Shown here one piece after another: positions 506-27,013 of a stretch of DNA of 37,152 nt. The position numbers and the translations under genes were made by a program. How positions within the stretch are numbered: the stretch's first letter is position 1; every line of letters starts with the position of its first letter. Below the pieces are notes generated by a model, which ran no database searches, was not told where the DNA came from, and was given only the letters and a program-made list of their open reading frames with translations. Where the stretch lies: contig DXAL01000025.1 of NCBI GenBank assembly GCA_019117125.1, positions 1-37,152 of the forward strand, in the 5' to 3' direction. The DNA comes from Candidatus Mediterraneibacter merdipullorum (GTDB lineage: Bacteria > Bacillota > Clostridia > Lachnospirales > Lachnospiraceae).

Positions 506-1108
506 TCACAGCGCCACGACCCTCGTACACACTTTTTCAAGCAGCGCCCGGCTGTGGCTCACCACGAGCATCCCCATCTTCCGCCTGTCTGCTTCCCCGA
601 GCAGAAACTCCCATATCTGCGCCTGCGTCACCAGGTCGAGCATCGCTGTAATCTCATCGCACAGCAGGAATTTTGTCTCCGGGCGCAGCGCCCGTGCAAG
701 GCAGAATCTCTGCAGCTCCCCGCCGGAGAGTTCGGACGGATAGCGCCCAAACCACGCTTCTTCGATGCCCAGCCTGTGCAGGATGTCTTCCTCTGGCGGT
801 CCTGCTTCCCGGAGGGTTTCTCCCAACGGGAGCAGCGGGTCTACCGCCGTCTCCGGGTGCTGCCATATCATCTGGACCGGGCAGACGCCCCGGTATCCGC
901 CGACCGGTCTTTCGTCCAGAAGCACGCTCCCGCTTTTTGGCTTCTCATATCCTGCCAGCAGGCGGCAGAGGGTTGTTTTGCCCCTGCCGCTGAGCCCGGT
1001 CAGTCCGACGCGTTCCCCTGGTCCGAGCGTCAGGCTGAACCGGTCAATGAGCGGAGATTTTTTTCTGTTCTTATAATAAAATGTAAGTTCCCGCGCTTCC
1101 AGTTTCAT
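506..1108 (-). CDS. ABC transporter ATPase, Dpp/Opp/NikE type (second ATPase)
   Basis: A 200-residue cytoplasmic ATPase that would power the importer encoded by the neighbouring genes. Walker A is GLSGRGKTT, the signature is LSGGELQRFCLARAL, Walker B is FLLCDEITAMLD and the switch histidine is in VVSHSRALL. It is short: it ends soon after the switch and lacks the C-terminal oligopeptide extension seen in the partner ATPase, as in NikE-like subunits. The ATG at 1108 overlaps the upstream stop (ATGA, four bases), so it is translationally coupled. Last gene of the larE-led operon. Substrate is inferred from context (nickel), since sequence alone cannot separate nickel from peptide transporters. 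Confidence 0.85.
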   Translation of the reverse strand: MKLEARELTFYYKNRKKSPLIDRFSLTLGPGERVGLTGLSGRGKTTLCRLLAGYEKPKSGSVLLDERPVGGYRGVCPVQMIWQHPETAVDPLLPLGETLREAGPPEEDILHRLGIEEAWFGRYPSELSGGELQRFCLARALRPETKFLLCDEITAMLDLVTQAQIWEFLLGEADRRKMGMLVVSHSRALLEKVCTRVVAL

Positions 1109-2052
1109 ATCTGCTCTCTGCCTCCCTGCTCCGGGTGCAGGCAGCGGACTTCCCCGCCCCGGTATGGCCTCAGCGGGATGTCCGGTACCGTCCGGCAGTC
1201 CGGCATGCAGAAGCTGCACCTTCCTGCATACGGACATCCGGAAGAGCCTTCTCCCGCAGCGGACCGGGTCTTTTCATCCGCCCGGAAACCATGTCCGGGC
1301 ATGGCATGCCACAACGCCCGTGTATAAGGATGCCGCAGGCGCTCTGCCGAGGCGAAATCTTCTGCTTTTGCCCTTTCCACGGTCTCGCCCGCATAAAACA
1401 CTGTCACATCATCCGCCACAGAAAGCGCCAGTTCCAGGTCATGGGTAATAAAAAGCACCCCCGCGCCCTCATCTGCCAGTTCCCGGAAATGTCCGAGGAT
1501 GCGCCGGGCAGCACGGACATCCAGCCCGGGAGTCGGCTCGTCTGCGATGATGAGGCGCGGCGTCTCCAGCACTGCAGATGCGATGAGCACGCGGCGCGCC
1601 ATGCCGCCTGAAAGTTCAAAGGGATACTGTTCTTCCGTATCGCTCCCAAGCCCGTACCGTTCAAGCGCGGCGCGGCACTGCTCCCTGGTCCGGGCATCCC
1701 TTTTCCCTTTCCGCAGCTGTGCGCCCACCTTCATCAGCGGGTCCAGGTAGGTGACGCCCTGGGGAATCAGGAAGATTTCCCTCCCCCGCAGCTCCTTTGC
1801 CCGCTTCTTTGTCAGCAGCTCACCGTCGTAGAACACTTCACCCGACACGCGGCTGTTCCGAGGCAGGATGCCCAGAATGCTGTGCGCCAGCAGACTCTTC
1901 CCGGAACCGCTGGCGCCGACGACAGCAGAAATCTGTCCCGGAGCCACTTCCAGAGAAAGGTCTTTTACTGCTTCTGTGTATGTTTCCCGGATGCCGCGCT
2001 CATATCGCGTGAATCCGATGGAAAGATGTCTGATTTTTAAAATTGGTCCCAT
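1105..2052 (-). CDS. ABC transporter ATPase, DppD/OppD/NikD type (first ATPase)
   Basis: A 315-residue ATPase with Walker A GASGSGKS, signature LSGGMARRVLIASAV, Walker B LIIADEPTPGLD and switch ITHDLEL. The C-terminus carries the oligopeptide/dipeptide extension with a cysteine cluster (GCPYAGRCSFCMPDC and a later RCLHPE); in characterised Dpp/Opp ATPases similar cysteines can hold a 4Fe-4S cluster. It pairs with the shorter ATPase that overlaps it by four bases to form the nucleotide-binding heterodimer. ATG at 2052 follows AGGAG by about ten bases and lies seven bases after the permease stop. Confidence 0.88.
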   Translation of the reverse strand: MGPILKIRHLSIGFTRYERGIRETYTEAVKDLSLEVAPGQISAVVGASGSGKSLLAHSILGILPRNSRVSGEVFYDGELLTKKRAKELRGREIFLIPQGVTYLDPLMKVGAQLRKGKRDARTREQCRAALERYGLGSDTEEQYPFELSGGMARRVLIASAVLETPRLIIADEPTPGLDVRAARRILGHFRELADEGAGVLFITHDLELALSVADDVTVFYAGETVERAKAEDFASAERLRHPYTRALWHAMPGHGFRADEKTRSAAGEGSSGCPYAGRCSFCMPDCRTVPDIPLRPYRGGEVRCLHPEQGGREQI

Positions 2053-2059
2053 CTGCTTT

Positions 2060-2869
2060 TCACTCCTGTACTCCCGCCGGTCCGGTCAGTCTGCGCACCT
2101 GTCCGCCCATCAGCGCGAACAGCATCACCGTCAGCACCAACGATAATCCCGGAAAGAGGGCGAGCCACCATTTCCCGGTAGTAAGATACCGCATGCTCTC
2201 AGAAAGGATCACCCCGATGGCAGGCTGCTCCGGCGACAGCCCGAATCCGAGAAATGTGACGCTCGATTCATGCAGAATCGCATGGGGAAACAGAAGGATG
2301 AGCCCGGTCAAATACTGAGGCATCAGGTGGGGGAACAGATGCCGGCGGATGAGTCCGGCTTTTGATACACCCAGCTTCTGCGCCGTCAGGATGTAAGGCG
2401 CCCGGGAAAGCTGGAGCAGTTCCCCCCTCAGGACTCTGGCAAGGGAGGGCCAGTGGCTCAGCGCCACGCCTGCCACGACTCCGGCGAATCCCTTCCCGCA
2501 TGCAAGGGAAATCAGGATGACGAGCAGGATATGCGGGATGCCCATCACCAGGTCGACCAGCCAGGAGACCACTGCGTCCGCTTTCTGCCCAAGGACAGCA
2601 GATACCGTCCCCAGCGCCAGCGCGATGGCGGCGCTGACCGCGGCAGTCAGAATGCCGATGCGGATACTTAAGGACAGTCCCGCAAGGGTGCGGGCAAACA
2701 TGTCCCTCCCCATCCAGTCTGTTCCGAAAAGGTAGGCAGCACAGGGCATCAGGTTTTTCCGGGTGAAATCCGTCTGCACCGCCTTCTGCTCCAGCAGGAG
2801 GCCGGCAGCAGTGATTGCAAGGAGAAGGACCGCCGAGACCGTGAGAAAACAGATTGTCCGTTTCTTCAT
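2060..2869 (-). CDS. ABC transporter permease, DppC/NikC type
   Basis: A 269-residue inner-membrane permease. It opens with a single N-terminal membrane segment (TICFLTVSAVLLLAITAAGL), then the DppC-type motif FGTDWMGRDMFARTLAG, then a typical BPD_transp_1 core with an EAA-like loop around LTAQKLGVSKAGLIRRHLFP that docks on the ATPases. It forms the channel with the preceding permease, whose stop it overlaps by four bases (ATGA). Short for DppC (about 300), closer to NikC size. Confidence 0.88.
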   Translation of the reverse strand: MKKRTICFLTVSAVLLLAITAAGLLLEQKAVQTDFTRKNLMPCAAYLFGTDWMGRDMFARTLAGLSLSIRIGILTAAVSAAIALALGTVSAVLGQKADAVVSWLVDLVMGIPHILLVILISLACGKGFAGVVAGVALSHWPSLARVLRGELLQLSRAPYILTAQKLGVSKAGLIRRHLFPHLMPQYLTGLILLFPHAILHESSVTFLGFGLSPEQPAIGVILSESMRYLTTGKWWLALFPGLSLVLTVMLFALMGGQVRRLTGPAGVQE

Positions 2870-3858
2870 TTTCCTGCCGCCCCCTTCCGTATCTTCGGGT
2901 CAATGACGCCGTAGAGCAGGTCTGCAGTCAGGTTCCCCACAAATATGATGGCGGCTGTGACTACCGTGATGCCAAGGAGCAGGGGCATGTCGCTCCCCAG
3001 CCCTGCCGTGACTGCCGCCTGCCCAAGCCCCGGGTAGGAGAAGACCTGCTCCACCAGCACAGAGCCGCCGATGATTTCTCCCGCAGATGCGAACTGGAGC
3101 GTAACGGCAGGGAGCAGTACATTGCGAAGCCCGTGCCGGCAGGCGACAGAGAGTTCGGATTCTCCCCGCGCCCTGGCAAAAAGGACATAGTCCGACTCCA
3201 TCACATCGACCATCTTTTCCCGGGTATGAAGCGCGATATTCGCCACGCCGGTAATGCTCAGAGTCAGAGCAGGCAGTATGGCATGGCGCAGGCGGTCCGC
3301 TGCGGTGACCGCCGCCGCATCCATTCCCACAGGCACGGCGAATCCAACCGGGAACCAGCCCAGCCAGACCGAGAAGACCAGCAGGAGAAGGATGGCCAGC
3401 CAGAACGCCGGAGTGGAGGATATCATCAGACAGTATCCTCTTATGAGACGGTCCGCCAGCCTGCCCCTGCATGCTCCGGCGATGACGCCCAGCGCCAGTC
3501 CCAGGACGCCGGAGATGAGCCATGCTGAGACGAGCAGCAGGACAGAACCTGCGAGCCGCTCAGCAATCACTGCCGTTACCGGCCGCCGGTAGAGCAGGGA
3601 GATGCCGAAGTCCCCGTGCAGCGCATCCGAAAGCCAGCCCAGGTACCGGACAAGGGGCGGCGTGCCCACACCCCAGTACGCCTCCGCCTTCGCAATCTGC
3701 TCCGGGCTCATGGAGCCAAGCGCAGCCTGACCGATATTGGTCTGGAGCGGGTCCAGGGGAGACGCCCACATCAGCAGGAAGGTGACGAAGCTGACCCCCA
3801 GCAGCAAAAGCGCAATCCGTATGAACTTTTTCCCTGTAAACTGAAGCCGATGTCTCAC
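2866..3858 (-). CDS. ABC transporter permease, DppB/NikB type
   Basis: A 330-residue integral membrane protein of the DppB/NikB family: N-terminal membrane helix (IALLLLGVSFVTFLLMW), the periplasm-facing segment with GDFGISLLYRRPV, and a BPD_transp_1 core ending in DLLYGVIDPKIR. The EAA-like loop is around ARARGESELSVACRHGLRN. The initiation codon appears to be GTG at 3858 after AGGCGG; no nearer ATG exists. It starts 67 bases after the binding-protein stop, the only sizeable gap inside the operon, and overlaps the next permease by four bases. Confidence 0.87.
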   Translation of the reverse strand: MRHRLQFTGKKFIRIALLLLGVSFVTFLLMWASPLDPLQTNIGQAALGSMSPEQIAKAEAYWGVGTPPLVRYLGWLSDALHGDFGISLLYRRPVTAVIAERLAGSVLLLVSAWLISGVLGLALGVIAGACRGRLADRLIRGYCLMISSTPAFWLAILLLLVFSVWLGWFPVGFAVPVGMDAAAVTAADRLRHAILPALTLSITGVANIALHTREKMVDVMESDYVLFARARGESELSVACRHGLRNVLLPAVTLQFASAGEIIGGSVLVEQVFSYPGLGQAAVTAGLGSDMPLLLGITVVTAAIIFVGNLTADLLYGVIDPKIRKGAAGK

Positions 3859-3925
3859 GTGCTGCCGCCTTTCTGTCTGCTCTCTGTCTTCTGTCCGTTC
3901 TCTGTCATTTGGTCCTGTGCCGCTG

Positions 3926-5644
3926 TCAGGACCAGCCCCACTGGTCTACATTATTTACAATGGACCAGCCGTGTCCATGGGGATGTATCTTCTGCTCCGC
4001 CACCTGGAGCCCGTCCCTGACCCAGTAGAGATGGTCGATATTGACAAGCCATACCCAGGGGACGTCCCCTTCCTGGGTCACTCCCGTGTTCCCGTCCCAC
4101 TGCGCCTGCTGCCACAGGGCATAGGACTCTTCCAGGTCCGGACTTTCCAGCGCCCGGTCCATATATCCGTCCACGGTCTCATTGGAATAGGGCGAATACC
4201 GGGCAGTCTCCCTGCCGGGAGCTGTGTGGTAGATATTGTAGAGCTCCATAGGCGTATGCGCGCCCCATCCCCAGACAAGCGGTTCGCTCAGCGCCCGGTC
4301 ATACGCCGTATCCCATCCCACGCCTTCCGTCGTGCAGGAAATGCCAAGCTCCCCGAGCTGAGCCGCCAGGTCTGCCGCCAGCGTCTGCCGCACGGAATCT
4401 CCTGCGGAATAGAGCAGGACCAGTTCCGCCTTTTCTCCGTCCTTTTCCCGGATGCCGTCGGCCCCTGTCTGCCAGCCCGCCTCATCCAGCAGGGCGGCGG
4501 CGCCTTCCGGGTCATAGGATACTTCCGCGGCGCTGTTGTACCACGGAAGCTGGTCGCACACGCTGTATGCAGGGCTCCCATAGCCGTTCAGCACATGGTC
4601 TATCATCTCCTGACGGTCAATGCCGATATTGATGGCGCGGCGGACGCGCACGTCGCAGGTAAAGTCATTTCCCACAGTGCGCCCTTCCCCGTCCGTCTGC
4701 TCCGGGACTGCCGGGAGATTGACGCCCCGGTTGTCCACCGATGCATAAGATGCCAGGCTGTACCCTGCCACTTCCTGGTCCGCATAGGAAGCGGATGTAT
4801 AGGCAAGGTCCACCTGCCCCGCCTGTGCAGCCAGGAACACCGCATCTTCTTCCATAAAGAGGATGGTTACCTGCTCCATCTGCGGCGCCTCCCCGTAATA
4901 ATCCGGGTTCGCCTCCAGGATCACCTGCTGCCCTCTGTCCCACTGCTTCAGGATGTATCTGCCCGAGCCCACCGGCTCCGTCCCGTAGGTCGCGCTGTCA
5001 TACGCGTGTTCCGGGACGATGCCCACTACCGCCATGGTATACGCCCAGATGGAAAAGGGACGGGTCATATGAAAGACCACCGTTGCATCGTCCGCCGCCT
5101 CCGCGTAGTCCAGCATGGTAAAATCACTGACCGTGCTGGACGCTTTGACCGTATTGTATGTAAATGCCACATCTTCCGCAGTCAGCGGCTCTCCGTCTGT
5201 AAAGCGCACATCGTCCCGGATGGTGACGGTCCATGTCATGCCGTCCGCACTGACGGAATAATCCGTCGCCAGGTCATACCCGATTGTCAGGTCCGGTTCC
5301 GTCACGGTGAGGGTGCTCTGAATCAGCGGTTCGTGCACATGCTCCCCGGCACCCCAGCCGAAAGCCGGGTCGAATCCGGCAGCAGGCTCCGAGTTCGTAT
5401 CCATGGCAATCACGACGGAGTCCTTTTGTCTGTCCAAAGCACCGCCGTCCGCCGCCTGTTGCTGTACATCCCCGCCGGTCCCGGCTGCTCCCCCGTCTGT
5501 TCCGGCTGCATTCCCGCCGCAGCCGGATGCGCCCAGCAGCGTACATACCAGGAGCGCGGCGGCAGAAAGGAGCGCGGGCATTCTCCCGAACCTGTTTCTC
5601 CCGCCCCGGCTTTTCCCAATCCGTCCTGTTCTTCTGTGTGTCAC
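3926..5644 (-). CDS. solute-binding lipoprotein of SBP_bac_5 family, putative nickel-binding (NikA/DppA-like)
   Basis: A 572-residue extracytoplasmic binding protein. The Arg-rich N-region, hydrophobic core and LGASGC lipobox (Cys about 42) mark a lipoprotein anchored outside the membrane. The mature part has SBP_bac_5 features such as DLATDYSVSADGMTWTVTIR followed by FTDGEPLTAEDVAFTYN. The start is GTG at 5644, overlapping the larC stop (GTGA); an internal ATG at 5581 would remove the positive N-region, so it is less likely. The C-terminus contains HPHGHGW, a His-rich motif compatible with metal binding. Linkage to NPN cofactor genes makes nickel the best guess for the cargo; a peptide or metallophore complex remains possible. 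Confidence 0.85.
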   Translation of the reverse strand: MTHRRTGRIGKSRGGRNRFGRMPALLSAAALLVCTLLGASGCGGNAAGTDGGAAGTGGDVQQQAADGGALDRQKDSVVIAMDTNSEPAAGFDPAFGWGAGEHVHEPLIQSTLTVTEPDLTIGYDLATDYSVSADGMTWTVTIRDDVRFTDGEPLTAEDVAFTYNTVKASSTVSDFTMLDYAEAADDATVVFHMTRPFSIWAYTMAVVGIVPEHAYDSATYGTEPVGSGRYILKQWDRGQQVILEANPDYYGEAPQMEQVTILFMEEDAVFLAAQAGQVDLAYTSASYADQEVAGYSLASYASVDNRGVNLPAVPEQTDGEGRTVGNDFTCDVRVRRAINIGIDRQEMIDHVLNGYGSPAYSVCDQLPWYNSAAEVSYDPEGAAALLDEAGWQTGADGIREKDGEKAELVLLYSAGDSVRQTLAADLAAQLGELGISCTTEGVGWDTAYDRALSEPLVWGWGAHTPMELYNIYHTAPGRETARYSPYSNETVDGYMDRALESPDLEESYALWQQAQWDGNTGVTQEGDVPWVWLVNIDHLYWVRDGLQVAEQKIHPHGHGWSIVNNVDQWGWS

Positions 5645-6939
5645 CGGTCCGCCTCCTTTTCCTGCCGCTCCTGCAGCAGCGCCTCCTCGTAAATCTGCCG
5701 GAAAGGCGTCTGCCGCTCCCGGGCAAGGGATGCCACATCTTCGTACTCCGGTTTCTCATGCCGGATGCCGAATCCTTCCGCCGTCTTTATGCGCACTTCT
5801 CCGTAAGGAGTCCGGACGCTCCTGGTACCCGGGGTGAGGAAATATTTCTCGCAGAGCCGCACTCTCACGCCGTTGGTCGTCGTCTCCCGCAGGATATCCC
5901 GGGCGGTCTTCTCTGTCTCTTCCGGTCTGCACAGCACGGTGAGCTCCCATCCCGGACGCCCTTTCTTCATCGTCCCGGACACCGTATACACATCCAGCGC
6001 TCCCAGCCGCAGCAGCTGCTCCTTTGCATATGCCAGCGCTTCCGGCGTCATATCATCGATGTTGCACACCAGCTCCGCAATGCTTCCGCCGGCGCCGCTT
6101 TGACCGCAGGCATCTTCCTGTCCCGCAGTTTCCCTGCGGTCCTCTTCGGTTTCCCCCAGAAAGATGCGGACGCAGTTCGGACGCTCAAATTGTTTTCTTC
6201 CCACGCCGATGCCGGTGGCTTTCAGGCGCATCACCGGCATCTCCCCGAAGGCTTCCGCAAAATGGACGAGCAGCGCCGCTCCGGTGGGGGTGCACAGTTC
6301 CCCGCGGATGCTGCCCCCGTAGAACGGCACTCCTTCCAGCAGGTTCGCCGCAGCCGGAGCCGGTACCGGCATGACGCCGTGGGCACAGCGGACGGTTCCG
6401 CTTCCCACATGGACCGGAGACGCCAGCACGCGGTCCGGCTTCAGGAGATGCATGGCATAGCACACGCCTGCCACATCCGCCACCGCATCCAGCGCGCCCA
6501 CCTCGTGGAAATGCACATCGCCGACCGGACAGCCGTGGGCTTTCGCCTCCGCCCGGGCAATGGCATCGTAGACCTGATGTGCATGCTCTTTCACTTCAAA
6601 AGGGAGCTCCAGCGCGTCAATCCGCCCTGCAATCTCCCCGGGCGCCGCATGGACGTGTCCGTGGGCATGTCCATGGGTATGTTCGTGGGCATGTTCGTGG
6701 ACATGTTCGTGGGCATGCCCGGCGCCTTCTTCCTCTCCGTTGACTGCCACCTTCATGTGGACACCGGATATCCCGCATGTGGATGCGGTCTCCGGCGCGA
6801 CGGTCACGCCGGGCAGCCCCAGACTGTTCATCCTGTGGAGGAATTCCTGTTTCTGCGCCTCATCCAGGAGGTCGTACAGAGCTGCCATGAGCATGTCCCC
6901 CGCAGCCCCCATCTGACATTCTATGTATAATGTTTTCAT
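5641..6939 (-). CDS. larC: LarC, nickel insertion protein for the pincer cofactor (single uninterrupted gene)
   Basis: LarC is the CTP-dependent nickel insertase that completes the NPN cofactor of lactate racemase. The protein starts MKTLYIECQMGAAGDM, contains a His-rich stretch (alternating HAHEHVHEHAHEH then THGHAHGH) near residue 80, and the conserved FHEVGALDAVADV. About 432 residues, the usual full length. In Lactobacillus plantarum the protein is made from larC1/larC2 by a ribosomal frameshift; here one frame covers it all. I prefer ATG 6939 because GAGG lies nine bases upstream; the ATG at 6948, which overlaps the larB stop as ATGA, sits directly against that site. Overlaps the binding-protein gene by four bases. 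Confidence 0.93.
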   Translation of the reverse strand: MKTLYIECQMGAAGDMLMAALYDLLDEAQKQEFLHRMNSLGLPGVTVAPETASTCGISGVHMKVAVNGEEEGAGHAHEHVHEHAHEHTHGHAHGHVHAAPGEIAGRIDALELPFEVKEHAHQVYDAIARAEAKAHGCPVGDVHFHEVGALDAVADVAGVCYAMHLLKPDRVLASPVHVGSGTVRCAHGVMPVPAPAAANLLEGVPFYGGSIRGELCTPTGAALLVHFAEAFGEMPVMRLKATGIGVGRKQFERPNCVRIFLGETEEDRRETAGQEDACGQSGAGGSIAELVCNIDDMTPEALAYAKEQLLRLGALDVYTVSGTMKKGRPGWELTVLCRPEETEKTARDILRETTTNGVRVRLCEKYFLTPGTRSVRTPYGEVRIKTAEGFGIRHEKPEYEDVASLARERQTPFRQIYEEALLQERQEKEADR

Positions 6940-6944
6940 ACCGC

Positions 6945-7751
6945 TCATCCTCTTTTCCCTGAATCACCCGGCAGTCCTCCCGTTCCGGACGCCGGCGGGA
7001 TGCTCTCCATCTGATTGATCATCCCTGCCAGATACCCTGCCCCGAATCCATTATCGATATTGACAACGCTGCACCCGGAGGCACAGGAGTTGAGCATGGA
7101 CAGAAGCGCGGACAGCCCGCCGAAGCTCGCCCCATATCCCACACTGGTCGGGACCGCCACCACCGGACAGTCCACCAGCCCGCCGATGACCGAAGCCAGG
7201 GCGCCTTCCATGCCCGCCACCGCCACCACGCACCGGGCGCTCATGAGAACATCCAGATTGGACAGAAGCCGGTGGAGCCCCGCGACGCCCACATCATAGA
7301 GCCGGGTCACCTGGTTTCCCAGCGTCTCCGCCGTCATGGCAGCTTCCTCTGCCACCGGGATATCGCTGGTCCCTCCGGTGGCCACCACGATGCTGCCTCT
7401 GTGCTCCTGCTTCCGGGGAAATGCCACCGCCAGCCTGGGGAGCGGATGATACTCTGCCGGAACAGCCGCGCACAGCACCTCCGCCGCTTCCGGGCTGATG
7501 CGGGTGACCAGGATATTGCGGCAGCCCCGCTCCCCCATCGCCTCCACGATGCCCCGTATCTGCTCCGGCGTCTTTCCCTCGCCGTAGATGACTTCGGATG
7601 CGCCCTGGCGGACGCTCCGGTGATAATCGACCTTCGCGTAATCCAGGTCCTCAAAGGGCGCCTCTTTCAGATGCAGAAGCGCCTCTTCCGGGGACGTCTT
7701 CCCGTCTGCAACCTCCTGCAGCAGTCTTCGTATGTCCTGTCTCTTTTCCAT
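6945..7751 (-). CDS. larB: LarB, pyridinium-3,5-biscarboxylic acid mononucleotide synthase
   Basis: LarB carboxylates and hydrolyses nicotinic acid adenine dinucleotide, the first step of NPN cofactor synthesis. The 268-residue protein has a helical N-terminal region with AKVDYHRSVRQGASEVIYG and a PurE-like (AIR carboxylase) C-terminal domain with VGYGASFGGLSALLSMLNSC and VVNIDNGFGAGYLAGMINQ, both hallmark LarB blocks. ATG 7751 is preceded by AAGGGGG at good spacing; an upstream in-frame start would run into larE. Starts 13 bases after larE and abuts larC. Confidence 0.94.
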   Translation of the reverse strand: MEKRQDIRRLLQEVADGKTSPEEALLHLKEAPFEDLDYAKVDYHRSVRQGASEVIYGEGKTPEQIRGIVEAMGERGCRNILVTRISPEAAEVLCAAVPAEYHPLPRLAVAFPRKQEHRGSIVVATGGTSDIPVAEEAAMTAETLGNQVTRLYDVGVAGLHRLLSNLDVLMSARCVVAVAGMEGALASVIGGLVDCPVVAVPTSVGYGASFGGLSALLSMLNSCASGCSVVNIDNGFGAGYLAGMINQMESIPPASGTGGLPGDSGKRG

Positions 7752-7764
7752 GGATATCCCCCTT

Positions 7765-8520
7765 TCAGACTGACGGTTCCCTTGCCGCAAGGTCCAGGAC
7801 CACCGTCTCAAACACGGGTCTTAATTTTTCACAGATTTCCGTTCGCCTCTCCACCGCCAGGCACATCTGCGCTTCCGTCACCTGGAGCAGGGCTTCCTTT
7901 CCCCGCAGCCGCACCCGGCAGTCGGAAAATCCCATGCCCGCCAGGAGGCGTTCCGCCTGCTCCGCCCGCCTGAGGTCTTCCCTGCATATCTTCGTGCCGG
8001 TAGCGATGCGCGTGGCAAGGCAGGCATATGCCGGCTTATCCCAGGTAAAGAGCCCTGCCTGCCGGGAGCGCTCCCGCACCCGGGCTTTTGTGATGCCGCA
8101 TTCCCGCAGCGGGGAGCGCACCTGCAGTTCGCGCAGTGCGCGCATCCCCGGCCGGTCACCCGCCTCGTCGGATGCATTCGTCCCGTCCAGCAGCACATGG
8201 AACCCGTCCGTTTCTGCCGCGCCCAGTATCCGCGAGAAGATTGCCTTCTTGCAGTAGTAGCACCGCTCCTGACCGTTTTCTTCTGCTTCCCGGACCGACA
8301 GGATGTCCAGTTCCAGCACGGTCAGGGGGATACCCAGCATCCCCGCCAGCCGGTTCGCATCTTCCAGTTCAAATGCGGGCTGGAAATCCGTTTTTACATA
8401 GTAGGCGTGTATCCTGCATCCGTACTCCTTTGCCGCCCACAGAAGAAATGCCGAGTCTGCGCCGCCGGAAAATGCCGCCGCCGCTTCCGGCACTTCTGTG
8501 AAAAACTGTTCCAGTGTCAT
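7765..8520 (-). CDS. larE: LarE, ATP-dependent sulfur transferase of NPN cofactor synthesis
   Basis: LarE adenylates the pyridinium dicarboxylate mononucleotide and replaces the two carboxylate oxygens by sulfur. The 251-residue protein has the PP-loop SGGADSA (about residues 18-24), RCYYCKK (about 87-92) and KPAYACLATRI, whose Cys (about 167) corresponds by motif to the sacrificial cysteine of L. plantarum LarE. It has several further cysteines, so a cluster-dependent catalytic variant cannot be excluded. ATG 8520 has AGGAGG eight bases upstream. First gene of the eight-gene operon; its leader has alternative hairpins. Confidence 0.93.
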   Translation of the reverse strand: MTLEQFFTEVPEAAAAFSGGADSAFLLWAAKEYGCRIHAYYVKTDFQPAFELEDANRLAGMLGIPLTVLELDILSVREAEENGQERCYYCKKAIFSRILGAAETDGFHVLLDGTNASDEAGDRPGMRALRELQVRSPLRECGITKARVRERSRQAGLFTWDKPAYACLATRIATGTKICREDLRRAEQAERLLAGMGFSDCRVRLRGKEALLQVTEAQMCLAVERRTEICEKLRPVFETVVLDLAAREPSV

Positions 8521-8672: not shown

Positions 8673-8894
8673 TTACTGCAAATTTTCTTTTGCTTCTTCT
8701 TTCGTCTCTGCTTTCCTGGTTATCTGCCGGGTGTTCTTTTCCACCAGTTTCCTCGGCACCATAACCTGATGGGCGCACCCCATGCATTTCAGCCGGAAAT
8801 CTGCTCCCACCCGCAGGATTTCCCACTCGTGGCTCCCGCATGGATGGGGCTTCTTCATCCGGATGATATCGCCTACTTCAAATCTGTCCGCCAT
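8673..8894 (-). CDS. DUF951 family protein
   Basis: A 73-residue basic protein of unknown function, widespread in Bacillota. It shows the DUF951 pattern: FEVGDIIRMKKPHPCGSHEW, then ILRVGADFRLKCMGCAHQVM and VPRKLVEK. The cysteines in HPCG and CMGC may bind a metal. ATG 8894 follows AAAGGG. It lies 33 bases downstream of the sortase gene on the same strand, so co-transcription is likely. Confidence 0.9.
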   Translation of the reverse strand: MADRFEVGDIIRMKKPHPCGSHEWEILRVGADFRLKCMGCAHQVMVPRKLVEKNTRQITRKAETKEEAKENLQ

Positions 8895-8927: not shown

Positions 8928-9815
8928 CTAGTCTACAGCCGTCAGCACGCCCTGGAGAAGGAACCGTTCATCTCTCCGGTCCCCGGTACAGGTCGAGAGC
9001 GTCACAATCTGGGACTCTGGGTCCAGCTCCACATCCACCTGGTAGTTCGAGGACTCCCGGCACATCTCCAGATATTCCTCAAACTCTTCATCCGATTCAA
9101 ATTCAATCTGATAGTTTCCGGCCGTGGCATGTACGATGCCCGCCATGAATACCGTGTAGGTCCTCACTTCCCCGGATGGCGTGTAGATATAGAAATCCGG
9201 ATGCTCCTGACAGAATTCTTCATCCTCATACAGATGGAGCCTGGAGAACATATCCGGGCTCACGTTCAGATGATGTCCGTATATGATGGTGTTCTTATCG
9301 GAAAAATCATCGTGGTTGTTCATATCCATAAAGATGGAGCCGAGGGTGTTGTCGTTCTCCGAAAAAGTCTGCGTCAGGTATTCCTCATTATCCGCGCTCT
9401 TTACAACCGGATAGTTGATGATGGACGGCTCGTCAAAGCGTATCCACGCGACGGTGTCCGGATTGATGTCCAGCAGCGCGTCAAAATCCACGCTGAACCC
9501 GGCTCCGTCGCCGTCCGCCGTCACCGCCAGGTCTTTGATTTCATCGTATTCCTTTCCACCCATGTATCTCGGTATCAGTATCATCCCGAGCTGATAGATG
9601 GAAAAAACAAACACACAGACCGCTGCGATGAGGATGACCCCGGATACAATGTCAAAGGTCATCTTCTTTTTCCTGCGCTGTTTCCGGCGTTCCTCTTTTG
9701 TCATTCCCTGCTCGTCCGGTCTTCTCCTGCGTGTTCCTTCCGTCCTGCGTGTTCCTTCCGTCCTGCGTGTTCCCTCGGTCCTGCGTGTTCCGCCGGTCCT
9801 GCTAGTTCTTTTCAT
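8928..9815 (-). CDS. srtB: class B sortase
   Basis: A membrane-anchored transpeptidase of about 295 residues that would cleave a sorting signal and attach proteins to the wall or to each other. Order: Arg/Thr-rich cytoplasmic tail with tandem repeats, RKQRRKKK stop-transfer charges, one membrane helix (TFDIVSGVILIAAVCVFVFS), then the sortase fold with catalytic His in IIYGHHLN, Cys in IVTLSTCTGD and Arg in DRRDERF. The spacing and the long region before the Cys fit class B. ATG 9815 has GGAAGAG upstream; a GTG at 9851 would add 12 residues. No substrate with a sorting signal is in the window. Confidence 0.92.
   Translation of the reverse strand: MKRTSRTGGTRRTEGTRRTEGTRRTEGTRRRRPDEQGMTKEERRKQRRKKKMTFDIVSGVILIAAVCVFVFSIYQLGMILIPRYMGGKEYDEIKDLAVTADGDGAGFSVDFDALLDINPDTVAWIRFDEPSIINYPVVKSADNEEYLTQTFSENDNTLGSIFMDMNNHDDFSDKNTIIYGHHLNVSPDMFSRLHLYEDEEFCQEHPDFYIYTPSGEVRTYTVFMAGIVHATAGNYQIEFESDEEFEEYLEMCRESSNYQVDVELDPESQIVTLSTCTGDRRDERFLLQGVLTAVD
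9724..9800 (-). repeat. 18-bp in-frame tandem repeat in srtB
   Basis: About four units of an 18-base repeat, each containing the string CTGCGTGTTCC on the plus strand, encode successive GTRRTE units at the N-terminus of the sortase, ahead of the membrane helix. Units differ at only a few positions, suggesting recent expansion. Confidence 0.8.
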
Positions 9816-26432: not shown

Positions 26433-26505
26433 TGAGCGTGCGGGGATTCGAACCCCGGACAACTTGATTAAAAGTCAAGTGCTCTACCACCTGAGCTACA
26501 CGCCC
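26433..26505 (-). tRNA. tRNA-Lys (anticodon UUU)
   Basis: Acceptor GGGCGTG/CACGCTC, anticodon stem CTTGA/TCAAG with loop CTTTTAA, T-loop GTTCGAATC. No encoded CCA. Last tRNA of the minus-strand operon. Confidence 0.97.
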
Positions 26506-26542
26506 TTATTCTCTTTTTCAGCTTACCCGTAAGTAACCTTAA

Positions 26543-26614
26543 CTGGGCTAGCTGGATTCGAACCAGCGTATGCAGGAGTCAAAGTCCTGTGCCTTACCGC
26601 TTGGCGATAGCCCA
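26543..26614 (-). tRNA. tRNA-Gln (anticodon UUG)
   Basis: Acceptor TGGGCTA/TAGCCCA, anticodon stem CAGGA/TCCTG with loop CTTTGAC, T-loop GTTCGAATC, discriminator G. No encoded CCA. Confidence 0.96.
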
Positions 26615-26664
26615 TCGAAGACTTGTGTCTGACACTGCATGCCAGTATGAATATAAAAGAAAAG

Positions 26665-26739
26665 GGTGGGTAGTGGGACTCGAACCCACGATATCCAGAA
26701 CCACAATCTGGCGCGCTAACCAACTGCACCATACCCACC
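26665..26739 (-). tRNA. tRNA-His (anticodon GUG)
   Basis: Acceptor GTGGGTA/TACCCAC with the extra 5' G opposite discriminator C, the mark of tRNA-His; anticodon stem CCAGA/TCTGG with loop TTGTGGT. Confidence 0.97.
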
Positions 26740-26743
26740 ATAA

Positions 26744-26817
26744 CGAGCCTGGGGGGATTCGAACCCACGACCTACGGCTTAGAAGGCCGTTGCTCTATCC
26801 AGCTGAGCTACAGACTC
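26744..26817 (-). tRNA. tRNA-Arg (anticodon UCU)
   Basis: Acceptor GAGTCTG/CAGGCTC (one G-U pair), anticodon stem ACGGC/GCCGT with loop CTTCTAA. Only four bases separate it from tRNA-His. Confidence 0.96.
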
Positions 26818-26862
26818 TTATACGAACATTCTCCTGCAAAAAGCTCCTGCCCTCCACAGGAA

Positions 26863-26933
26863 AGCGGGTGATGAGAATCGAACTCACGTATCCAGCTTGG
26901 AAGGCTGGTGTTCTACCATTGAACTACACCCGC
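26863..26933 (-). tRNA. tRNA-Gly (anticodon UCC)
   Basis: Acceptor GCGGGTG/CACCCGC, anticodon stem CCAGC/GCTGG with loop CTTCCAA, T-loop GTTCGATTC. Confidence 0.97.
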
Positions 26934-26938
26934 ACATA

Positions 26939-27013
26939 TCGGGGTGACAGGATTTGAACCTGCGGCCTCCTGGTCCCAAACCAGGCGCTCTAGCCAAGCT
27001 GAGCCACACCCCG
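26939..27013 (-). tRNA. tRNA-Pro (anticodon UGG)
   Basis: Acceptor CGGGGTG/CACCCCG, anticodon stem CCTGG/CCAGG with loop TTTGGGA, discriminator A. First tRNA of the operon. Confidence 0.97.

Follow-up and report, generated by a model that had tools for sequence, protein, structure and literature searches.

An eight-gene lar-importer cluster and an orphan nickel-pincer nucleotide pathway in Mediterraneibacter

The lar locus of Lactiplantibacillus plantarum comprises larABCE plus lar(MN)QO, with larC split by a frameshift. LarB, LarC and LarE of this organism share one operon with LarA (PMC9283937), and lactate racemase operons that include genes for a nickel transporter, lar(MN)QO, have been described (PMC10134865). 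In about 15% of the genomes analysed in one study, for example those of cyanobacteria, larB, larC and larE are found without larA, and non-LarA clients binding the nickel-pincer nucleotide (NPN) have been proposed (PMC11796402). As to nickel importers of the ABC type, YntABCDE has five named components and is a distant relative of NikABCDE (PMC2667541).

The lar genes and their arrangement

The window, a stretch of 37,152 nucleotides from Candidatus Mediterraneibacter merdipullorum, carries at positions 506-8520 of the minus strand larE, larB and larC, followed by a complete importer made up of an SBP, two permeases and two ATPases. Each of the eight genes is intact:

7765..8520, minus strand: larE, ATP-dependent sulfur insertase of NPN synthesis (TIGR00268, 230.6 bits, cut-off 150)
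6945..7751, minus strand: larB, NaAD carboxylase/hydrolase of NPN synthesis (NF033503, 284.6 bits, cut-off 175); 13 bases past larE
5641..6948, minus strand: larC, nickel insertase (TIGR00299, 206.3 bits, cut-off 90; NF052512, 131.5 bits, cut-off 50; PF01969, E 2e-128); 4-base overlap with larB
3926..5644, minus strand: SBP lipoprotein, YntA-type; GTG start; C-terminal end HPHGHGWSIVNNVDQWGWS; 4-base overlap with larC
2866..3858, minus strand: importer permease 1 (NikB/Opp family), PF00528; best NCBIfam E 6e-68, under all cut-offs listed
2060..2869, minus strand: importer permease 2 (NikC/Opp family), PF00528; best NCBIfam E 6e-49, under all cut-offs listed; 4-base overlap
1105..2052, minus strand: importer ATPase 1 (NikD-like, oligo_HPY C-terminal region), PF00005 and PF08352; best NCBIfam TIGR02770 nikD, 158 bits, cut-off 318.7
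506..1108, minus strand: importer ATPase 2 (NikE-like, short), PF00005; best NCBIfam NikE model NF007739, 115 bits, cut-off 354; 4-base overlap

An earlier note on this DNA had described lar genes and a full importer on one strand, joined by four-base overlaps. The eight minus-strand frames confirm the former point; the overlaps are found at four of the seven junctions, that between larC and the SBP gene included, and are absent from the others. From larE to the last ATPase gene the intergenic distances are +13, -4, -4, +67, -4, +7 and -4 bases, the largest spacing (67 bases) lying after the SBP gene. We infer that the eight genes are co-transcribed as one unit. A nickel riboswitch was considered as a control element and discarded, as an Rfam scan of the entire window gave tRNAs only, and no riboswitch, at the gathering threshold. 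Scans for promoters (6 sites, 3.6 expected) and terminators (11, 7.2 expected) yielded nothing decisive.

LarE, LarB and the two LarC halves score above the NCBIfam cut-offs (four of four models) and, by these curated equivalog scores, the set belongs to NPN biosynthesis. As in the L. plantarum locus, LarB, LarC and LarE are all present; the two loci differ in that a five-gene YntABCDE-type importer is found here and larA is not. Whereas larC of L. plantarum is split, the gene in the window is a single uninterrupted frame (LarC1 plus LarC2) carrying a His-rich stretch, a trait that was examined as a possible mark of importer-linked loci and proved not to be special to them. The LarE sequence contains SGGADS, CYYC and a later Cys in ACLATR. 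All elements of the SGGXDS and CXXC-C signatures of the [4Fe-4S]-dependent LarE type (PMC9283937) are therefore in place, in contrast to the sacrificial Cys of the L. plantarum protein (PMC9283937).

The importer and its probable cargo

When the SBP was compared by phmmer with solved structures, the best matches were YntA (4ofl, E 1e-106) and 3ry3 (E 2e-106), annotated as "putative solute-binding protein", followed by 8efz (E 2e-44). Residues 83-572 match either of the first two at 360 bits, so that the homology with the Yersinia protein extends across 490 residues; judged against solved structures only, membership of the YntA group holds over the full length. The next solved relative scores 155 bits, E. 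coli NikA 91 and DppA 45. The grouping with peptide importers that the earlier note had named as a possible objection is not borne out by these scores (YntA 360 bits, DppA 45). The E. coli NikABCDE system belongs to the same superfamily and has the same set of components, but the NikABCDE cut-offs (TIGR02294, 02789, 02790, 02770 and 02769) are not reached by any subunit of the importer (158/393, 203/447, 150/358, 158/319 and 102/333 bits, respectively, the first pair being that of the SBP and NikA). Likewise, the SBP falls short of CntA of the Cnt staphylopine importer (NF047575; 103 bits, cut-off 800), and the scores listed for OppA, DppA, Opp4A and the Opp/Dpp permeases are all far under threshold. 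None of the five proteins reaches any listed curated equivalog cut-off. The label "Nik/Dpp-type" used previously is better replaced by "YntABCDE-type". The HPHGHGW sequence pointed out earlier at the lipoprotein C-terminus is indeed present, and it is kept in all 11 SBPs scoring >800 bits (window SBP counted); in the four SBPs that score 309-501 bits, the sequence reads HGHGHG or HPHGHG and the next residue is A or T.

Since the closest solved relative of the SBP is the nickel-binding YntA, nickel is the best-supported cargo, and we infer that the importer is specific for it. A kinship read from alignments does not prove nickel transport and would be compatible also with cobalt or a metallophore complex. 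The importer may supply other nickel enzymes as well. The Yersinia YntABCDE importer serves urease; the one described here is tied to NPN synthesis.

Recurrence of the lar-importer linkage

In a genus sample of 58 genomes, that of the window counted, larC is found in 34 and the SBP in 32, and the two co-occur with an odds ratio of 82.5 (p 6e-10, the 58 genomes being treated as independent). In 29 of the 34 larC-bearing members, the SBP gene immediately follows larC and shares its strand. One congener (G594) has all eight genes in the same order at 65-86% identity; its larC coordinates equal those of G570, to which the M. catenae locus L239 belongs. The linkage, for which a neighbourhood survey had been suggested, recurs more widely: within the family, a YntA-type importer accompanies 15 of 141 larC loci (4 downstream, 10 upstream, 1 divergent), and its distribution on the LarC tree (131 rows) needs 7 changes. 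CbiM, another nickel/cobalt transporter type, lies near larC in 8 of the 141 loci; the earlier note had pointed to a CbiMNQO-type nickel transporter in the L. plantarum lar locus, in keeping with the published lar(MN)QO (PMC10134865). A further neighbour family of larC, seen at 13 loci, lies opposite larB in most of them and was set aside as a probable antisense artefact, judging from its position. Among the literature matches listed, no published description of a YntABCDE-lar operon was found by title or abstract opening.

Conceivably the importer has another cargo, be it peptides, cobalt or a metallophore complex, and lies next to the lar genes for regulatory reasons or by accident. All five proteins belong to the peptide/nickel importer superfamily and none attains a Nik cut-off, as this explanation would have it; however, YntA is the nearest solved relative of the SBP by about 200 bits, and the association with lar is seen in three arrangements and in most larC-bearing congeners, which makes the explanation very unlikely. 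The match to YntA and the recurrent linkage support instead the nickel uptake-and-insertion line proposed in the earlier note.

LarA and the user of the cofactor

No enzyme family other than LarA is known to use NPN, a rare nickel cofactor, and the client enzyme had been expected to be a LarA-family protein encoded elsewhere in the genome. This expectation found no support. A search of the genome (assembly 94.26% complete) with the Lar_N profile gave no match at the Pfam gathering score of 23.3, the sole sub-threshold match being a DUF362 protein (21.4 and 20.5 bits). Taking a Lar_N match at E <= 1e-20 as a clear LarA, only 4 of the 34 larC-bearing congeners have one and 30 do not, or 28 if divergent matches above the Pfam cut-off in two of them (G596, E 5e-10; G619, E 2e-8) are counted as LarA. 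Across the family, 36 of 151 larC-bearing genomes have a clear LarA; among the other 115, eight have a divergent match above the Pfam cut-off. LarA also occurs in genomes that lack larC (7 of 24 congeners, 10 of 46 family genomes), so that a lack of larC carries no decisive weight in either direction.

An ordinary LarA homologue could have been overlooked owing to the incomplete assembly or to insensitivity of the profile. Lar_N may miss LarA subfamilies: a control search gave no match in Corynebacterium glutamicum, the source species of LarAH19/GntE1, though strains may differ. Moreover, LarA is present in 8 of the 14 family genomes from other genera with importer-linked larC, the window aside. 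Yet the same search did detect LarA of several sizes elsewhere, and larC-bearing genomes without it are so many, in the genus as in the family, that chance assembly gaps are no explanation; we consider an overlooked LarA rather unlikely. NPN synthesis here is an orphan pathway that comes with its own probable nickel supply. It resembles that of other larBCE genomes devoid of LarA, with the differences that the operon includes the genes of the probable nickel importer and that the trait could be followed through one genus. The combination of an importer-equipped larBCE operon with scarcity of LarA in the genome and its close relatives makes a cofactor user other than LarA probable.

The DUF362 protein offers one candidate. 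DUF362 (PF04015) shares Pfam clan CL0471 with DUF2088/LarA and has served as an outgroup (PMC11770544). The best matches of a predicted model of a near relative are LarA structures, and the family is predicted to have a LarA fold with an inserted ferredoxin, which in DUF362-A is of the 2[4Fe-4S] type and sets it apart from LarA. In a profile alignment whose 24 rows had been selected by the H/K/H motif itself, DUF362 H159, K169 and H185 align without gaps with LarA H174, K184 and H200. The pattern H-x9-K-x14/15-H is found in 31 of 31 DUF362 loci examined, and the motif is kept in 80 of 80 named loci, collected with two search patterns of which one contained the first H and neither the K or the last H. 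DUF362 presence follows larC at family and phylum level, and DUF362 adjoins lar genes in several genera. The notion that DUF362-A simply tracks larC fails within the genus (proxy matches in 25 of 34 genomes with larC and 17 of 24 without) and in Bacteroidales, where LarC is found in none of eight and none has LarB above cut-off. Ten of 15 DUF362-A genomes (completeness not given) are without LarC; the remaining five comprise a Fusobacteriaceae and a Desulfomicrobium, both without LarB above cut-off, C. vincentii and two Mediterraneibacter. No published proposal of an NPN role for DUF362 was found among the literature matches listed. We tentatively suggest, as a possibility short of an even chance, that DUF362 represents a second NPN enzyme class, combining the LarA fold with a 2[4Fe-4S] ferredoxin and acting as the client of larBCE in LarA-less genomes. 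In this scheme, the lysine matching LarA K184 would anchor the NPN, which would move hydride between the substrate and the iron-sulfur clusters.

Both LarA and DUF362 are absent from 24 of the 151 larC-bearing family genomes. The client might be another linked protein, such as a ferredoxin-containing aldo/keto reductase encoded next to larC in other genera. A cluster of such reductases (domains PF00248 and 4Fe-4S, from one scanned representative) is found in the neighbourhood of larC at 17 of 141 loci, on the same strand every time; the linkage corresponds to 13 changes on the LarC tree, and LarA is found in none of the 17 genomes. Against this, the reductase is not encoded in the operon of the window, aldo/keto reductases of this type are common in Lachnospiraceae, and they have no NPN-binding motif that we are aware of. 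A client of this kind seems unlikely.

Taken as a whole, it is likely that the eight genes are transcribed as a single unit and constitute a nickel-to-cofactor line whose client, in most of the genus, is probably not LarA. The YntA-type lipoprotein would capture chelated nickel, which the two permeases and two ATPases would bring into the cell; LarB and LarE would turn NaAD into the dithiolated pyridinium nucleotide. Nickel insertion by LarC, which carries the His-rich stretch, would complete the NPN. The cofactor would then be used, in the window genome and most of the genus, by a protein other than a recognisable LarA.

In an older survey, nickel transporters were reported from 10 organisms for which no nickel-dependent protein was known (PMC2667541). 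The operon unites this orphan-transporter puzzle with that of orphan NPN synthesis in one cluster, which most of the genus members with larC share, and sharpens the published open question of larBCE genomes without larA. An NPN user other than LarA probably remains to be found, and the genus offers a limited number of gut bacteria, isolates among them, for the search, with DUF362 as one concrete candidate. If the DUF362 proposal is true, that family would be a net-redox NPN family, fed here by a dedicated nickel importer.

Organization and conservation of the lar-importer operon

The eight genes of the operon were found intact at the position given in the earlier note; they lie on the minus strand. 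LarE, LarB, LarC1 and LarC2 all scored above curated cut-offs, and the importer consists of one SBP_bac_5 lipoprotein (the substrate-binding protein, SBP), two BPD permeases and two ATPases. The four-base overlaps previously attributed to these genes exist at four of the seven junctions, larC/SBP among them, but not at the other three; the spacings, in order, are +13, -4, -4, +67, -4, +7 and -4.

506-8520, minus strand: larE-larB-larC, SBP lipoprotein, two permease and two ATPase genes
About 8673-8894: upstream neighbour of the operon, which we take to resemble DUF951
Next gene beyond: class B sortase, its N-terminus (about 9720-9815) with a series of near-identical TEGTRR repeats
26433-27013, minus strand: cluster of six tRNA matches

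The operon is a genuine conserved gene cluster. Among 58 genomes of the genus Mediterraneibacter, larC was found in 34, the SBP (E <= 1e-60) in 32 and both in 30. Of the 34 larC-bearing congeners, 29 have the SBP gene immediately downstream of larC in the same orientation. In G589 the SBP is distant from larC, in G622 larC sits at a contig end, and a search at E <= 1e-60 found no SBP in the larC-bearing G611, G575 and G580; G574 and G614 carry the SBP without larC. Genome G594 has all eight genes in unchanged order, and its larC coordinates are identical to those in G570, which holds the M. catenae locus.

The wider family was sampled with 250 genomes, one per genus, 151 of which contain LarC; 141 larC neighbourhoods, from 140 of these genomes and counting in the window, were examined. 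A YntA-type SBP (above 300 bits) occurs at 15 of the 141 loci (4 downstream, 10 upstream, 1 divergent), while CbiM and CbiQ, for each of which one representative was scanned, lie near 8 and 7, respectively. In a FastTree phylogeny of LarC (131 rows, after removal of 10 shorter frames), importer-larC linkage requires seven changes; branch support is patchy, 53 of the 128 inner branches being open.

Other families recur near larC. An aldo/keto reductase cluster (the one representative scanned has a 4Fe-4S domain) is found, always on the same strand, at 17 of the 141 loci (within L094-L233; e.g., L117:2802-3968), amounting to 13 changes on the LarC tree; none of the 17 genomes has LarA. A cluster with a DUF3842 representative occurs at 10 of the 141 (e.g., L214:16632-17084), accompanied by CbiM/CbiQ in L214 and L230. 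Two clusters of small, apparently membrane-bound proteins (6 and 5 loci; both in L148 and L173), whose scanned representatives gave no Pfam match, possibly represent a small metal transporter.

Kinship of the importer

Among solved structures, the SBP is closest to YntA (4ofl), from the nickel importer of Yersinia, and to 3ry3, labelled a "putative solute-binding protein"; both align with residues 83-572 at E about 1e-106. They are followed by 8efz (2e-44), AppA (3e-38), 4oet (1e-30; presumably a Campylobacter-type relative), E. coli NikA (about 6e-25) and DppA (about 5e-11). It scored below the cut-offs of NikA, CntA, Opp4A and DppA, and the other four importer proteins fell below every cut-off listed (for each ATPase, the best 25 of about 180 families). 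The importer is best described as YntABCDE-type, and from kinship and context we infer nickel as its cargo. An HPHGHG motif is present in all 11 SBPs scoring above 800 bits, the window's included. In four SBPs scoring 309-501 bits the stretch reads HGHGHG, or HPHGHG with A or T as the next residue; in three neighbours with lower scores it is GHHGVG. The aligned stretch of YntA has fewer histidines.

LarA, DUF362 and the client of the cofactor

The importer half of the finding is less surprising than the client half. A Lar_N profile search of the source genome gave no match at cut-off, its single weak match falling within a DUF362 protein. Counted at Lar_N E <= 1e-20, LarA is present in 46 of the 250 family genomes and in 36 of the 151 with LarC; within the genus, it accompanies larC in 4 of 34 genomes and occurs in 7 of the 24 without. 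Divergent, weaker Lar_N matches over the cut-off were seen in 2 of 30 larC-bearing congeners and 8 of 115 LarC-bearing family genomes scored LarA-less. A Lar_N control in Corynebacterium glutamicum gave no match, although a LarA homologue has been published from that species; the LarC search does match there.

Six of the seven larC-less LarA congeners have a LarA-like open frame of about 500 residues (G586, G590, G600, G603, G605 and G613, the last 99% complete; LarC was not found in them). This matches the size of the solved LarA-like NPN enzymes 9q2u and 9q3j (498 and 505 residues), suggesting that NPN-using-type proteins exist even where larC is not found.

Co-occurrence with LarC is stronger for DUF362 than for LarA, with p values overstated throughout by taking genomes as independent. 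Any DUF362 gave 125 genomes with both, 40 with DUF362 only, 26 with LarC only and 59 with neither in the family (odds ratio 7.1, p 7e-12), and 163, 81, 9 and 56, respectively, among 309 phylum genomes (12.5, p 1e-14); LarA gave 2.8 (p 0.007) in the family. For DUF362-A, the form with an inserted 2[4Fe-4S] ferredoxin, the family counts are 80, 21, 71 and 78 (odds ratio 4.2); in a few of the 101 carriers the frame is partial or broken. DUF362-A lies near larC at 5 of the 141 loci, about 0.3 being expected for uniform placement in an assumed 3.0 Mb genome; this proximity requires five changes on the LarC tree. At one of 80 named loci, L266 of Anaerostipes sp. 992a, it stands immediately before larB-larC-larE, all on one strand. 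Its closest relatives among named records are from Mediterraneibacter. The motif H-x9-K-x14/15-H, aligned with H174, K184 and H200 of LarA, is retained at all 80, despite carriers among LarC-less Bacteroidales. LarC was not found in 10 of 15 DUF362-A genomes tested (8 of 8 Bacteroidales, a Spirochaetaceae and a Faecalitalea), and LarB was above cut-off in none of these Bacteroidales. In the genus, 25 of the 34 larC-bearing genomes and 17 of the 24 others have a DUF362-A proxy (the weak Lar_N match typical of this group). In the family, 24 of the 151 genomes with larC contain neither LarA nor DUF362 of any kind. Because it does not track larC in the genus, and given the LarC-less Bacteroidales and these 24 genomes, DUF362 is a candidate NPN client rather than a finding, and a rather doubtful one.

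A proposed route for nickel

In the best-supported route, nickel would be brought in by the YntABCDE-type importer, the pincer ligand would be made by LarB together with an Fe-S type LarE, and LarC would insert the metal; the pathway steps of LarB, LarE and LarC follow PMC11796402 and PMC9283937. A single putative transcription unit that holds both the importer and the insertase would fit nickel supply to demand. In a genus mostly without recognisable LarA, most members that carry larC have kept the larEBC-importer unit.
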